Below, piece after piece: positions 43,997 through 54,618 of a stretch of DNA of 64,000 nucleotides. Below the pieces are notes generated by a model. That model saw only the letters and a list, made by a program, of their open reading frames with translations. It was not told the DNA's origin and made no database searches. Source of the stretch: Methanolinea sp. (GTDB taxonomy: Archaea > Halobacteriota > Methanomicrobia > Methanomicrobiales > Methanospirillaceae); the NCBI GenBank assembly GCA_018263335.1, contig JADFCY010000009.1, positions 20,554 through 84,553 on the forward strand. The letters run 5' to 3'. The position numbers and the translations under genes were made by a program. Each line of letters begins with the position of its first letter. The stretch's first letter is position 1.

Positions 43997-44204
43997 GTGA
44001 TGATCTGTACGGGGGATGAATAAATCTCCCTTCAGGGCTTTTCTGTCACTGGGGCAAAGACCCCGAAAATCCCCGAAAAATCGGCCCGGCTCCCCCTCCC
44101 TTGCGGCATGGGTTGCGGAGGAGAGGGTGTGCGAAAGATTCCGTTAAAAATAGTATTAAATCCTCCAGGGGCATCACATTGCACTATAAAGAAGGTGAGT
44201 GATC

Positions 44205-44591
44205 ATGACTGGAACGAAACGCTATAAATGCAAGGTCTGCGGCTATATCTACTCCCCGCTGCGTGGAGAGCCGCACAACGGCATTCCCGCAGGGACGGCC
44301 TTTGAGGACCTTCCGGACAGCTACATCTGCCCCATCTGCGGCATGGAGGGCAAGGGAAAGATCGGAAAGTGGGGATTCGAGGAGTGGGCTCCCACCAAGT
44401 GGCTCTGCTCGGTCTGCGGGTACGTCTATGACCAGAAGCGCGGAGAACCTCACCGTGGTATCAAACCCGGGACGGCATTTGAGGATCTCCCTGAAGATTA
44501 TACCTGCCCGGTCTGCAACCTCGACCCAAAGATCTCCAAGCAATTCGGAAAGGTCTTCAAGCAGGGGTTCGACCCTCTGGACATCCCCTGA
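44205..44591 (+). CDS. tandem rubredoxin (two rubredoxin domains)
   Basis: [38 protein letters not shown] and [37 protein letters not shown]. Confidence 0.95.
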
Positions 44592-47527: not shown

Positions 47528-48703
47528 ATGAAGAATGCCTTCCACGTGATGATCGTCCCCACTCTCGGCTGCCCTGCCAGGTGCAGGTACTGCTGGAGTT
47601 CAGACCCCGCGTCTCCACGGATGGGCATGGGGACCCTCAGAGAGGTGGTGGACTGGCTGAAAGGCATCGAGAAGGAGCGGGTGACATTCACTTTCCACGG
47701 CGGCGAGCCGCTCCTTGCAGGCGCCGGGTTCTACCGCGAGGCGCTGCCCCTCATCTCGCGCGAGCTTGCGCACCTGGAGCCCGAGTTTGCCATGCAGTCC
47801 AATCTCTGGCTGATGACCCCAGAGATCGCGGATGTCCTGGCAGAATACCATGTTCCCATAGGGACGAGCATCGACGGCCCGGAGGATCTCAACGACACCC
47901 AGAGGGGAGAAGGCTACTTCCAGAAGACGATGAAGGGGTACGCGATCGCGCGGGAGCACGGGCTGAAGGTGAGTTTCATCTGCACCTTCACGTCGCGGTC
48001 CTTCCACGAGCGGGAGAAGATTGTCCGTTTCTTTAGGGAGAACGGCTTTACCCTCAAGCTGCACCCGGCACTCCCGTCGCTTCGAAACGATAACCCAGAG
48101 CCCTGGACACTCGATCCCGCCGATTACGGGGAGCTGCTCGTCTATCTCCTTGATACGTCCCTTGAGCACCTGGGGAGAATGGAGATCATGAATATCAACG
48201 ACCTGTGCAAGTGCGTCTTCTTCCGGCACGGAACTGTCTGCACCTTCGTCGACTGCATGGGGAGCACCTTTGCGATCGGTCCTGACGGCGGCATCTACCC
48301 CTGCTACCGGTTCGTGGGGATGCCGGAGTACGTGATGGGGAACGTGGCCGACCGTCCGACGCTCGATTCGCTCGCGGACTCTCATATCGGGCGGCTCATG
48401 AGGGATTTCCGGGCCTTTGTCAACCGGGCGTGTGCCGGGTGCGCCCATATCCGGTATTGCCGGGGAGGGTGCCCCTACAACGCCATGGTCCCGCATGGCG
48501 GAGAGATAAAGGGGGTGGACCCCTACTGCACCGCGTACAGGCGCATATTCGACGAGATCACGGGCCGCCTTGACCGCGAGATGGCGGACTCCCTGCCGTT
48601 CGAGATGGGACCGTTCCCGCCGGCCCGGCAGAAGGGGAGGAAGCCAGGCATCATGGCGCTGATGCGGCACCAGGCGATGAAGATGCGGATGCAGATGCCG
48701 TAA
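47528..48703 (+). CDS. radical SAM/SPASM protein (anSME-like / putative peptide-modifying)
   Basis: GCPARCRYCWSSD (CX3CX2C), FTFHGGEPLLAG, SPASM cysteines GPDGGIYPCYRF and CAGCAHIRYCRGGCPYN. Confidence 0.88.
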   Translation: MKNAFHVMIVPTLGCPARCRYCWSSDPASPRMGMGTLREVVDWLKGIEKERVTFTFHGGEPLLAGAGFYREALPLISRELAHLEPEFAMQSNLWLMTPEIADVLAEYHVPIGTSIDGPEDLNDTQRGEGYFQKTMKGYAIAREHGLKVSFICTFTSRSFHEREKIVRFFRENGFTLKLHPALPSLRNDNPEPWTLDPADYGELLVYLLDTSLEHLGRMEIMNINDLCKCVFFRHGTVCTFVDCMGSTFAIGPDGGIYPCYRFVGMPEYVMGNVADRPTLDSLADSHIGRLMRDFRAFVNRACAGCAHIRYCRGGCPYNAMVPHGGEIKGVDPYCTAYRRIFDEITGRLDREMADSLPFEMGPFPPARQKGRKPGIMALMRHQAMKMRMQMP

Positions 48704-48784
48704 GGTATCTCTCATTCGGATGCAGCTTCAGGGATAAAGCGCACTTTCTCAACAGAACCGGGTAGTGGAGGAGCGTACCCCAGG

Positions 48785-48975
48785 CAGGGTGGGTTCCGCG
48801 AATGCATACAGATTCGGCGTGTGCAAGGAGTGAGGACCAGGAAAAGGGTACCCTGGCAGGGTGCGTTCCGCGAATGCATACAGATTCGGCGTGTGTAAGG
48901 AGTGAGGACCAGGAAAAGGGTACCCTGGCAGGGTGCATTACCCCAATGCACACGCCTCTGGCGTGTGCATGCATG
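48785..48975 (+). repeat. 72-bp tandem repeat, about 2.6 copies
   Basis: Units starting CAGGGTGSGTTCCGCGAATGCATACAGATTCGGCGTGTGYAAGGAGTGAGGACCAGGAAAAGGGTACCCTGG at 48785 and 48857 (2 mismatches), partial third at 48929. Confidence 0.9.
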
Positions 48976-48990
48976 TGCATCTAAAAAAAG

Positions 48991-50028
48991 TTAAATGAGT
49001 TTGAATATGGGGTGGTTCTCGGCCTTGCACTCGATTCCCATCTGCCGGGTGGCTTCCAGCACGACCATGTCGGTGTATGCCTGGGCAGTGATCATGGCCT
49101 CCACGTTCTCGATGGGGCCGTACATGATCAGGTCGGCACCAAGGGTGCTTGCGATCATGTTGCAGCCGATATCGGGTGCGGACCATGCCGCCTGGATGAC
49201 CCCGTCGAGGCCGCCCTGGTAGTGGTGCAGGAGCTGCTCGAGGTAGGCGTCCTTGCCCTTCAGGGACTCGGCGAGCTTGGACGGGTTCTTCTTTGAGCCC
49301 TTCCAGCGCTTCAGCCAGGTCCAGGAGACGGTCATGTTGTGGTACGCGCCGCCCGTGGGGTAGCCGTGGATGGCCTTGCAGGCCAGGATCTCGCGGTATG
49401 CGCCACCCGAGCCGAGGCCGAGGGGTGTTGCCGCAGTGTCGAGGATGGGCCTGGTGATTCCTGCCTCCTCGGCGATCTGGATCATTCCCTTGGTCTGGCC
49501 GGCGACACCGCCCTCGACGAGGGTCTTCTCCCTGCCTGCGACCGAGGGGTCGGCGGGGTTGAAGGCCAGCACGATTGCGGCGTCGACGTCGCTGTTCTTG
49601 ATTGCCTCGACGTTCTCCGGCGGGATGGACCCGTTAATGGAGTTGTAGATGGCCCTCTTCGCAAGCCCGACTTCCGTCACGTACTTGCAGGCGTGCGCGA
49701 GCGCAGCCGGCACCGACGAGTCCATCAGGAACGCGGTCTTGTTGTCGATCTTGTCAAACCAGGTGAAGTAGCTCTCGAACGCTTCCCCGAACTCCGCAAT
49801 GATCTGGATAAAGTGGGGGATCCCGGTCATGTCGGAGAGTTCCTGGCAACGGTTCCAGAGCGCCTCCGCCTTCTTCTCATCGATCTTGCCCTTGTGGTCA
49901 TCAAGCACTACCTCATGCTTGTTGTAGAAGATTGACGCACCGAGCACAGTCGGGTATTCTCCAGGCTGGCCACCGATCTTGGTGCCATTGAAGTCCCAGA
50001 CTTTCTGTTCTTTCTCAAACCTGAACAT
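48991..50028 (-). CDS. mtrH: tetrahydromethanopterin S-methyltransferase subunit H
   Basis: MFRFEKEQKVWDFNGTKIGGQPGEYPTVLGASIFYNKHEVV. Confidence 0.96.
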   Translation of the reverse strand: MFRFEKEQKVWDFNGTKIGGQPGEYPTVLGASIFYNKHEVVLDDHKGKIDEKKAEALWNRCQELSDMTGIPHFIQIIAEFGEAFESYFTWFDKIDNKTAFLMDSSVPAALAHACKYVTEVGLAKRAIYNSINGSIPPENVEAIKNSDVDAAIVLAFNPADPSVAGREKTLVEGGVAGQTKGMIQIAEEAGITRPILDTAATPLGLGSGGAYREILACKAIHGYPTGGAYHNMTVSWTWLKRWKGSKKNPSKLAESLKGKDAYLEQLLHHYQGGLDGVIQAAWSAPDIGCNMIASTLGADLIMYGPIENVEAMITAQAYTDMVVLEATRQMGIECKAENHPIFKLI

Positions 50029-50045
50029 CTGAATTCACACCTCCT

Positions 50046-50783
50046 TCACATCATCACATTCAGCTTCGGGAGCAGGACCAGCAGCATGACGAATACCATC
50101 AGTCCGGCGACCAGTCCATAGAGGATGCCTATATCCCGGCCGATCTTCCTGCCCACACGCTGGGCTATCTCTGCATCGGCGAACTCGATCTGCTTCTCGA
50201 CCTTGTCCAGCCGCTTCTCTATCTCCAGGAATTGCGGGTTGACCCCTGCCGCGGCGACCTCGACGCCGCCAGCGGCCTCCTTGACCTCCACGACCATGGG
50301 GTCTGCGGCGAATGCGCCCGGGTCGCGTCCCTTGAGCTCGTTGATCTTGGCCTTGATGGCGCCGAGGTCCTCGGCCTCCATGATGTTGACCACTTCAACC
50401 TGCTCCTGGAAGCGCTTGATGGCGGCATCGTTGAGGTTCTCGATGAAGGGGATTGCACCCTCAGCACCGACGACCCTGCCGTCCTTGACCCCGCCCTTGT
50501 GGAGGGCGGCCATGGTCTGGCCTGCGAGGTGACCCTTGACCTCGGTCCCGCAGAGCAGGAGGAACCGGATGTTGGGGTTGGAGATGATGTTGGCGATGAC
50601 CTTCTCGAGACCGAGGTTCTCGGTCTTGCAGGACCCTGCGATGGCGGCCCCGCCGTCGCAGATACCCTTCTCGTCGAGGTGGGACCCGCAGGTCATGACG
50701 GCCACGGGGCTGTTTGGGTCGCCTGCGTGGAAGTCTCCCTGCACGATCGGCCATCCGCTTGCTGGTGATTTCTTGTCTGCCAT
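50046..50783 (-). CDS. MtrA-MtrG fusion: duplicated MtrA corrinoid domain fused to MtrG
   Basis: Residues 1-173 identical to the mtrA product; C-terminus [57 protein letters not shown] is MtrG-like and sits in the mtrG operon slot between mtrF and mtrH. Confidence 0.85.
50266..50783. repeat. 518-bp direct repeat, copy 1 (within the mtrA-mtrG fusion)
   Basis: Manual alignment to 51210-51727 shows 2 mismatches. Confidence 0.9.
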
Positions 50784-50795
50784 TTCTCTTTCACC

Positions 50796-50999
50796 TCACA
50801 TGACCACGGCAGGCACGACGATCAGGATCAGTGCGGTCAGTACTCCTGCGGCAAACCCGATGATACCGGAGCCCAGGAGTGCCGAGTCGTACTTGTTCGA
50901 TCTCGCCAGTATCTGCGCCTTGTAGCGGATGTTCTCCACCATGTTCTCGATGGCAACCATCCTGATAGGTCCTGCCATCTTCTGTCCTTCTTCTGCCAT
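50796..50999 (-). CDS. mtrF: tetrahydromethanopterin S-methyltransferase subunit F
   Basis: MAEEGQKMAGPIRMVAIENMVENIRYKAQILARSNKYDSALLGSGIIGFAAGVLTALILIVVP. Confidence 0.9.
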   Translation of the reverse strand: MAEEGQKMAGPIRMVAIENMVENIRYKAQILARSNKYDSALLGSGIIGFAAGVLTALILIVVPAVVM

Positions 51000-51004
51000 T
51001 TTGT

Positions 51005-51727
51005 TCACCCCATCAGCATGAACCCGAGGACGGCGAACGACACGATGAGACCGATCATGATACCCTCGATCTTACCTGAGTAGACACCGGCCGCAAACTT
51101 GTCGCGGTACCCGATGTCTGTCACCATCTTCTCGATCACTTTCATTCGCGCGTGGATGAGGGCCAGTTCGCCGGACATGGGCTGGACGACCCCTCCGGTC
51201 TCTTCCACCCCGCCAGCGGCCTCCTTGACCTCCACGACCATGGGGTCTGCGGCGAATGCGCCCGGGTCACGTCCCTTGAGTTCGTTGATCTTGGCCTTGA
51301 TGGCGCCGAGGTCCTCGGCCTCCATGATGTTGACCACTTCAACCTGCTCCTGGAAGCGCTTGATGGCGGCATCGTTGAGGTTCTCGATGAAGGGGATTGC
51401 ACCCTCAGCACCGACGACCCTGCCGTCCTTGACCCCGCCCTTGTGGAGGGCGGCCATGGTCTGGCCTGCGAGGTGACCCTTGACCTCGGTCCCGCAGAGC
51501 AGGAGGAACCGGATGTTGGGGTTGGAGATGATGTTGGCGATGACCTTCTCGAGACCGAGGTTCTCGGTCTTGCAGGACCCTGCGATGGCGGCCCCGCCGT
51601 CGCAGATACCCTTCTCGTCGAGGTGGGACCCGCAGGTCATGACGGCCACGGGGCTGTTTGGGTCGCCTGCGTGGAAGTCTCCCTGCACGATCGGCCATCC
51701 GCTTGCTGGTGATTTCTTGTCTGCCAT
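51005..51727 (-). CDS. mtrA: tetrahydromethanopterin S-methyltransferase subunit A
   Basis: [33 protein letters not shown]...; C-terminal TM anchor; operon order B-A-F. Confidence 0.95.
51210..51727. repeat. 518-bp direct repeat, copy 2 (within mtrA)
   Basis: Manual alignment to 50266-50783 shows 2 mismatches. Confidence 0.9.
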
Positions 51728-51738
51728 CTCTTGTCACC

Positions 51739-52020
51739 TCACATCAGATGGAACGCATACACCCCTGCGATGAAGAGGCCGACTGCCAGTCCGTACCAGT
51801 AGGCGGTTGCCGCTCCCGCGGTTGGAAGGGCGTTCTCCCTGTTCGGGAACGAAGCGAGGAAGTTGCCTTTTCCGGAGAGCATGTTCACGATATCGTTGGC
51901 GACGGCTTCCATGTCGGCGACCTTCTCGATCACCGGTGCAAGCGACTCGCCCGCGGTGGTCACGACACCGACCATCGGGTCGACCACGAGTCCGTATTCC
52001 GGAAGAACCTGGACGTACAT
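51739..52020 (-). CDS. mtrB: tetrahydromethanopterin S-methyltransferase subunit B
   Basis: MYVQVLPEYGLVVDPMVGVVTTAGESLAPVIEKVADME; operon order. Confidence 0.93.
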   Translation of the reverse strand: MYVQVLPEYGLVVDPMVGVVTTAGESLAPVIEKVADMEAVANDIVNMLSGKGNFLASFPNRENALPTAGAATAYWYGLAVGLFIAGVYAFHLM

Positions 52021-52021
52021 A

Positions 52022-52870
52022 TCAGTGTCCCTCCAGTTCCGGTATCGGTTTTGCGTCGAGCCAGGCTGCGGCGTCGCGCTTCGAGAGCTCGATGTACTTC
52101 GTGTAAGTGTAGTACCACCCCACGAGTGCCACGATGACCGAAACCAGTGCTGCGGTCATGCTGACAAGGGCCATCGACATCACTGCGACGGCGATCATGG
52201 AGAGGAACCCGCACTCCTGCGCGAGCGTGAGCATCCTGTCCTGGGTCCAGTTGGGGCCAAGGCACGCGTTGAACGGGTGCTGGATTGCAATCCCGCCGAG
52301 CATGAACGCCACCGCGATGAGACCCCCTCCGATGAAGGATGCCTGGTAGCTCGGGAGCGAGAGCCCGAGAATCGTCACGGTGCCCGAGGTCAGCGGTGAG
52401 AACTCAAACGATCCAGACATCATTGCGGCAAATCCCATAAGGACAAGGGCACCGATGATGGCCATCTCGATGAGAGACTGGATCATGACCGGGATGCGCA
52501 TGTTCAGCACGTTGTTGGACAGGAACCCAAGAATTGCACCGATGATTGCGGCCAGGACGACTGCGACGATCGGTGCGGCCACTCCGTACTTGGTGGCAAA
52601 CAGCATGGCGATCACGCCGGAGCCGAATGCCATCATCCCTGCGGAAGGCACACCGGTACCGATACCGTAGCTGCACAGGTGCTTGATGGCATGGCTTCCC
52701 CATACGATGGCGGCGACCGCGCCCAGTCCACCGAAGAACGAGAAGAGCTGGGTCCCGGTAAGGACGTTCGCATACGTCAGGTAGATGAGTACCAGCGACG
52801 CGACAAGGCCTGCTGCCAGGATGGTGTTGTGGGGAACGCCTCCCTCGATTACTTCAACCTTTACTGTCAT
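52022..52870 (-). CDS. mtrC: tetrahydromethanopterin S-methyltransferase subunit C
   Basis: Hydrophobic MtrC; WGSHAIKHLCSYGIGTGVPSAGMMAFGSGVIAMLFATKYG. Confidence 0.94.
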   Translation of the reverse strand: MTVKVEVIEGGVPHNTILAAGLVASLVLIYLTYANVLTGTQLFSFFGGLGAVAAIVWGSHAIKHLCSYGIGTGVPSAGMMAFGSGVIAMLFATKYGVAAPIVAVVLAAIIGAILGFLSNNVLNMRIPVMIQSLIEMAIIGALVLMGFAAMMSGSFEFSPLTSGTVTILGLSLPSYQASFIGGGLIAVAFMLGGIAIQHPFNACLGPNWTQDRMLTLAQECGFLSMIAVAVMSMALVSMTAALVSVIVALVGWYYTYTKYIELSKRDAAAWLDAKPIPELEGH

Positions 52871-52879
52871 TTCTGCACC

Positions 52880-53716
52880 TCACATTGCCACGATCAGGAT
52901 GGCGACCATCCCGCAGAGTGCGGATGCCACTGCAGAGGCCACGAGTGCCCGGGGGAACCGCTTGAACTTGGGGTCATGCGGCCCTTCGATGGTCCCCGTG
53001 ATGTTGTATGCGGTGAGCACGGCGTTCACCAGGAACATTCCGATGGCGAATATGCCCGCCAGGCTTACCGCGATGGGAAGCACCTGTGCCGGCAGCGCCT
53101 GCATCATGCCGGGGAGTGCCTCCTTGTACACGTCCAGGAGCATGATGTAGATGAGCGTCCCGCCGCCGCCACCGAGGAGACCTCCAATGACGCCTCCCAC
53201 GTAGGAGACGAATGGCAGTCCGTGACCTTCAGTACCCTGGGACTTGAACTCGGCCTGGGTGTCCCCGCTGATGGGGTCCTTGGCGACTTTTCCCGAGGCA
53301 CAGGGGATACCCATGCCAAAGACATAGATGAAGGTGACGAACATGCAGGTGATGGCCATCATCAGGCCGCCACCGACCGCGCCTGTGACAACTGCGACCA
53401 CGATGCCCTGTTCTGCGGCCCATGCGCCCCCGAAGAGGCCTGCAAGTCCTGCACCGGCAGCAAGCATGGCGACACCGGTGGCGATACCGGGTGCCTGCCC
53501 CATGGCTGCGGGTGCGCCGCCGACCGGGACGAAGTGGACGCCGAAGGCGATGGCGAGTCCGCCGATGATGATCCCGATGAGTGCCATGAACATCAGGCCC
53601 GGCCCTACCATGAAGTAGGTGGCGCCGATGATCACGAGCAGGAGAATGATGCCTGCGATGGTGGCAGGCATGTCCATTGCCCCTCCTGCCTGTGGTTTTG
53701 CTCCGACAGCGCTCAT
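52880..53716 (-). CDS. mtrD: tetrahydromethanopterin S-methyltransferase subunit D
   Basis: FVPVGGAPAAMGQAPGIATGVAMLAAGAGLAGLFGG...; operon order. Confidence 0.94.
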   Translation of the reverse strand: MSAVGAKPQAGGAMDMPATIAGIILLLVIIGATYFMVGPGLMFMALIGIIIGGLAIAFGVHFVPVGGAPAAMGQAPGIATGVAMLAAGAGLAGLFGGAWAAEQGIVVAVVTGAVGGGLMMAITCMFVTFIYVFGMGIPCASGKVAKDPISGDTQAEFKSQGTEGHGLPFVSYVGGVIGGLLGGGGGTLIYIMLLDVYKEALPGMMQALPAQVLPIAVSLAGIFAIGMFLVNAVLTAYNITGTIEGPHDPKFKRFPRALVASAVASALCGMVAILIVAM

Positions 53717-53718
53717 CT

Positions 53719-54618
53719 TCAGGATCCCTCCTCAGCAGGCTTTCCATAGGGTCCGTAGTTCTTGCGGGCCCAGACCTCGATATAGCGGTCGATGACCGCG
53801 AAGATCAGGATGATGATGATCCCTACAATGATCGCTCCCCAGCCGGCACCCACGTGCTCGAAGAGCACGGTACGCCAGATCTCGAGGAATACGATCAGCC
53901 CGAAGCAGAGCCCTGATGCGGGGCCGCCGAGCTTTGCAGAGAACCAGCCGTTGTCAAGAGAGTTCCTCTCACCCGCTTCGGCATAGCGGACGATGTTTCC
54001 GGATGCGGCGATGGGCACACCGGCGCCGAATTTCTGGGACTGGTACTGCCGCTCCTTTCCATAGAAGGGGTTTCCAGTCGCGGATCCGGCAGCGCCGAGG
54101 GCAATACCCCACACAAGCCCCAGCAGGGGCAGTGGGAAGGGATGGCCGAGCGCGGCGTTGATCAGGTGACACATGGTCACCGTGGTGAAGATGGCGACAA
54201 ATGCATGTGCCATGGTCACCGTGGTCATGGACTTCAGCACGTCTACAAAGACGGGCTGGCCAAACTTCGCGAGACTTGCAGTCCTGCCGAGGTATGCGGT
54301 GGTCGCATACACGCCCTGGATGAATACGGCCAGGGCGCTTCCCAGCACGAGTGCAAGTATCGGATTGATCTGCATCGCCATGAATGCCCAGGCAATACCG
54401 GCGCCCAGGCATACCCACAGCCCATAGGCGGGGGGCTCACCGGCAATGGCCTTATTGAAGATGCGGTGAAGGTACCCCATCTGGGGGGCGAGCTGAACCT
54501 GCGAGTTCGGGTCACCCTGTGAACCGATATCAGATTCAGTGTTCTCCGCAGCACCGGCCACTGTGGCAAGAGCTCCTGCCAATGCAGTTATTCCAATGCC
54601 AAACGCAATACTTTCCAT
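53719..54618 (-). CDS. mtrE: tetrahydromethanopterin S-methyltransferase subunit E
   Basis: ESDIGSQGDPNSQVQLAPQMGYLHRIFNKAIAGEPPAYGLWV. Confidence 0.96.
   Translation of the reverse strand: MESIAFGIGITALAGALATVAGAAENTESDIGSQGDPNSQVQLAPQMGYLHRIFNKAIAGEPPAYGLWVCLGAGIAWAFMAMQINPILALVLGSALAVFIQGVYATTAYLGRTASLAKFGQPVFVDVLKSMTTVTMAHAFVAIFTTVTMCHLINAALGHPFPLPLLGLVWGIALGAAGSATGNPFYGKERQYQSQKFGAGVPIAASGNIVRYAEAGERNSLDNGWFSAKLGGPASGLCFGLIVFLEIWRTVLFEHVGAGWGAIIVGIIIILIFAVIDRYIEVWARKNYGPYGKPAEEGS

Follow-up and report, generated by a model that had tools for sequence, protein, structure and literature searches.

A Methanolinea-like member of the mtrA-2b (MtrA-MtrG fusion) genes of Methanomicrobiales and a possible second cobamide shuttle in the Mtr complex

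Mtr is a central Na+ pump of methanogenesis, and current structural models of it rest on complexes with a separate MtrG. In the structure of the canonical Mtr(ABCDEFG)3 complex from Methanothermobacter marburgensis, MtrA, B, F, and G each contribute helices to a stalk in which MtrA and MtrG are closely paired. The MtrA corrinoid domain, whose His84 is the axial cobalt ligand, is mobile on a disordered linker rich in glutamate and glycine and was proposed to swing from MtrH to the MtrCDE cavity and back (PMC10998594). A different gene organization was described by Wang et al. in 2015: mtrA-2b of Methanomicrobiales is exactly an MtrA-G fusion gene, and a parallel MtrA-F fusion, mtrA-2a, is found in Methanococcales and in Methanocella arvoryzae (PMC4632066). 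The MtrA domains of mtrA-1 and mtrA-2 were reported in the same study to be homogenised by gene conversion, and the MtrA-G fusion was detected again in a 2018 genome-wide screen (PMC6053082).

The stretch of DNA analysed here (the window; 64,000 nucleotides) comes from a genome related most closely, among named taxa, to Methanolinea and other Methanoregulaceae, i.e., Methanomicrobiales. It contains a complete mtr operon with the gene order E-D-C-B-A-F-AG-H, in which a fusion gene occupies the mtrG slot between mtrF and mtrH and mtrA-1 lies upstream. The features of the operon are as follows.

53719..54618, minus strand: mtrE (Pfam PF04206, E 1.4e-127)
52880..53716, minus strand: mtrD (Pfam PF04207, E 1.1e-92)
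52022..52870, minus strand: mtrC (Pfam PF04211, E 2.2e-72)
51739..52020, minus strand: mtrB (Pfam PF05440, E 3e-30)
51005..51727, minus strand: mtrA-1, canonical MtrA with corrinoid domain and its own C-terminal membrane helix (Pfam PF04208, E 1e-83; NCBIfam TIGR01111, 345 bits)
50796..51008, minus strand: mtrF, a separate gene of 70 aa (Pfam PF09472, E 2.2e-21)
50046..50783, minus strand: mtrA-2b, MtrA corrinoid domain fused to MtrG (Pfam MtrA and MtrG in one frame of 245 aa)
50259..50783, minus strand: MtrA domain of the fusion, residues 1-175, the homogenised (gene-conversion) tract (DNA alignment)
50046..50234, minus strand: MtrG portion of the fusion with stalk and membrane helix, residues 184-245 plus stop codon (matches positions 11-63 of the Pfam MtrG profile and PDB MtrG chains 9qtq_S and 8q3v_G)
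48991..50028, minus strand: mtrH (Pfam PF02007, E 1.8e-97)

An earlier note on this DNA had read the gene in the mtrG slot as an MtrA corrinoid domain joined to MtrG, and profile searches confirmed this assignment. The ORF, complement(50046..50783), starts with ATG and encodes 245 aa, of which residues 4-172 match Pfam MtrA (PF04208, E 1.2e-83) and residues 184-236 match MtrG (PF04210, E 2.9e-22); the protein also scores above the cut-off for the NCBIfam mtrG model TIGR01149. Its C-terminal part (residues 177-235) aligns to residues 6-65 of the MtrG chain 9qtq_S, near the N terminus of that chain, and His85 is the counterpart of His84 in MtrA of M. marburgensis. Solved structures exist for homologues of the MtrA part and of the MtrG part. 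The identity to MtrA-1 reported in the note is real, although the count of 173 residues fell two short: identity runs through residue 175, and DNA alignment of the first 516 bases revealed differences at two positions only, both silent. The two MtrA domains in this genome share 99.6% DNA identity, and they are the only MtrA matches found by a profile search of the genome, both lying in this operon. The statement that no separate mtrG lies between mtrF and mtrH was likewise correct and extends further: across all 2.03 Mb of the assembly (99% complete), the fused match to PF04210 is the sole one even when E values as high as 10 are admitted, and a standalone mtrG elsewhere in the genome was thereby ruled out.

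In its domains, its place between mtrF and mtrH, the normal mtrA-1 upstream, and the homogenised MtrA domains, the locus agrees with the published mtrA-2b (PMC4632066) and differs from it in nothing of substance; it adds to these genes a representative from Methanoregulaceae, in a Methanolinea-like genome. With mtrA-2a it shares a second MtrA domain that lacks a helix of its own, is carried on a small stalk subunit, and is homogenised with mtrA-1, but the partner in mtrA-2a is MtrF and here it is MtrG, and the two fusions are of independent origin according to the same study. The gene in the window is not of the mtrA-2a type, given that mtrF is a separate gene. Compared to the canonical complexes from M. 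marburgensis (PDB 8Q3V, PMC10998594) and Methanosarcina mazei (PMC12774963), the subunits, the MtrA/B/F/G helix stalk, and the His84-type corrinoid domain are the same, whereas MtrG in those complexes is a separate protein without a second MtrA domain.

The earlier note had proposed a survey of mtrG in related genomes, and 232 genomes of Methanomicrobiales from six families (f1-f6) were compared. MtrA matches were found in 190 of them, commonly as two matches about 940 bases apart, and MtrG matches in 179. Among the matches listed, MtrG starts at profile position 5-11 in all six families and, on unbroken contigs, lies in frames of approximately 240-320 aa. In the same phylum outside the order, MtrG matches start at profile position 1-4 and lie in frames of 73-143 aa, which are too short to contain an MtrA domain. 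No close relative with a standalone mtrG and a single mtrA was seen. The fusion is therefore present throughout the order and, having been described in 2015, is both already known and ordinary for Methanomicrobiales; the singularity implied by the earlier note was not borne out. The gene is almost certainly mtrA-2b, the MtrA-G fusion characteristic of the Methanomicrobiales mtr operon.

The earlier note had also raised the concern of an assembly artefact, in which the mtrA repeat was wrongly joined to a standalone mtrG. An almost exact tract of more than 500 bases is common to both copies, and short-read assemblies handle such tracts badly. Ten of the shorter MtrG frames in relatives were inspected at the sequence level. 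Eight run into a contig end (G090, G160, G060, G064, G165, G181, G222, and G216); the other two (G166 and G227) contain N runs inside the mtrA repeat, and MtrA and MtrG can still be recognised there in a single frame. Assemblies break at the near-exact repeat; they do not create it. Because the same arrangement recurs in dozens of genomes of six families, and independent genomes of many species that carry it are single contigs (e.g., G056, G085, G088, G112, G120, and G196), the artefact was rejected, with virtually no probability left to it. A duplication private to the lineage of the window, recent enough to account for the 99.6% identity, is extremely improbable: in every family sampled, the fusion sits at the same place and its junction is of the same kind, and relatives with the same architecture have paralogue identities from 79% to 100%, a range that is explained by gene conversion (PMC4632066).

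Breaks or N runs at the mtrA repeat affect a number of Methanomicrobiales assemblies (including seven of the ten above, G090, G160, G060, G064, G165, G166, and G227, and others, L113-L125). They truncate mtrA-G frames and make mtrA or mtrG seem lost, and surveys of gene presence may be misled by them. Three nearly complete genomes from the genus of the window (G144, G149, and G150) have no MtrG match, and MtrA is represented by one partial match in G150 and by none in G144 and G149; the missing MtrG is probably an assembly dropout at the repeat.

Conservation of the fusion was assessed in 51 distinct operons, each on a single locus. The fusion is in frame in all 51, with a length of 237-248 aa. 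The motif GRDIGILYG is present in every fusion and in none of the MtrA-1 proteins, and 12-15 residues separate residue 169 from the NPQ(F/Y)xE start of the MtrG part. The cobalt-ligand histidine (His85) is kept in both copies in 51/51 operons. Between genomes, the fusions are approximately 78% identical in amino acids and approximately 50% identical at third codon positions, with the MtrA and MtrG parts alike in this respect, and this difference indicates that both parts are under purifying selection.

Homogenisation was examined in the same sample. DNA identity averages 91.8% between paralogues within a genome (range 79% to 100%) and 74.6% between orthologues, compared to published values of 92.4% and 73.7% (PMC4632066); paralogue identity drops sharply after codon 170, from approximately 87% to approximately 27-33%. 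In 30 of the 51 genomes, the MtrA domain of the fusion resembles the mtrA-1 of the same genome more closely than it does any other fusion. In a FastTree phylogeny of the 102 domains, 30 of the 51 pairs are sisters, and the remaining 21 (about 40%) are non-sisters that group by related genomes into small clades; the largest clade comprises 16 sequences from eight genomes, including Methanospirillum. These non-sister pairs indicate that conversion, although recurrent, does not act continuously in all lineages, which modestly refines the published picture with its eight Methanomicrobiales. In eight Methanospirillum-like loci (L008-L010, L016, L021, L028, L069, and L072), the mtrA-1 and mtrA-2 domains differ by approximately 16-20% within a genome, which suggests that this lineage has ceased to homogenise them. 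The best explanation of the gene is that an ancestral mtrA duplicate lost its own membrane helix and became joined in frame to an mtrG that lost its first ~10 residues; gene conversion with mtrA-1 keeps the corrinoid domains alike, up to the sharp boundary near codon 170.

The product of the gene could in principle be a short MtrG alone, generated from an internal start or by cleavage, with the second MtrA domain a mere passenger. An in-frame ATG at codon 163 and a GTG at codon 165 offer possible starts, but these are the only ones in codons 141-200, and both also occur in mtrA-1 because they lie within the homogenised tract common to the two genes; an internal start specific to the fusion was rejected on these grounds. 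The full fusion frame has its own GAGGTGA before the ATG, as does mtrA-1, and the purifying selection on an MtrA part that retains its histidine also speaks against a passenger, making this explanation very unlikely. It is more conceivable, although still unlikely, that the fusion is made and the second MtrA domain mainly provides dosage of the protein or a partner for conversion instead of acting as a distinct second shuttle. The two domains are identical in the window genome, so no specialisation is visible, and Methanococcales reach the same outcome via MtrF (PMC4632066). However, with about 40% of pairs being non-sisters, conversion is not obligatory, and the fusion still persists in frame with its histidine.

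The presence of two cobamide domains per protomer is plausible from their sequences, since both keep the cobalt-ligand histidine and both are under purifying selection, and a complex with two cobamide shuttles per protomer is the most likely working model. In this model, the fusion would stand in for MtrG within the stalk of MtrA, B, F, and G, and its short Gly/Ala-rich linker would bear a second, likewise mobile, cobamide domain. Each protomer would then possess two shuttles that move methyl groups between MtrH and the MtrCDE cavity, one tethered via the MtrA helix and the other via the MtrG helix, giving up to six cobamides per trimer. It is possible, although proposed here only tentatively, that the two shuttles act from different points on the stalk in a methyl-transfer and Na+-pumping cycle unlike the single-shuttle cycle proposed for Methanothermobacter and Methanosarcina. 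The MtrA-G gene is known; the functional consequence of two shuttles was not found described in the literature searched, nor was cobamide loading or use of the second MtrA domain. Evidence for an Mtr complex from Methanomicrobiales at the level of expression, proteome, or structure was not found in the same literature, and a literature search on Methanoculleus turned up nothing pertinent to expression of the fusion. Methanomicrobiales and Methanococcales each carry, independently, a second corrinoid domain, which bears on whether the proposed pumping cycle depends on there being one mobile MtrA domain in each protomer.

Other features were noted in the surroundings of the operon. Just downstream of mtrH, a 72-bp unit is repeated in 2.7 copies (48779-48969) and has no other match in the genome. 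Beyond it, a gene convergent with mtrH (47528-48703) encodes a radical SAM protein with a SPASM domain, and a protein of 130 aa with two tandem rubredoxin domains is encoded at 44199-44591.
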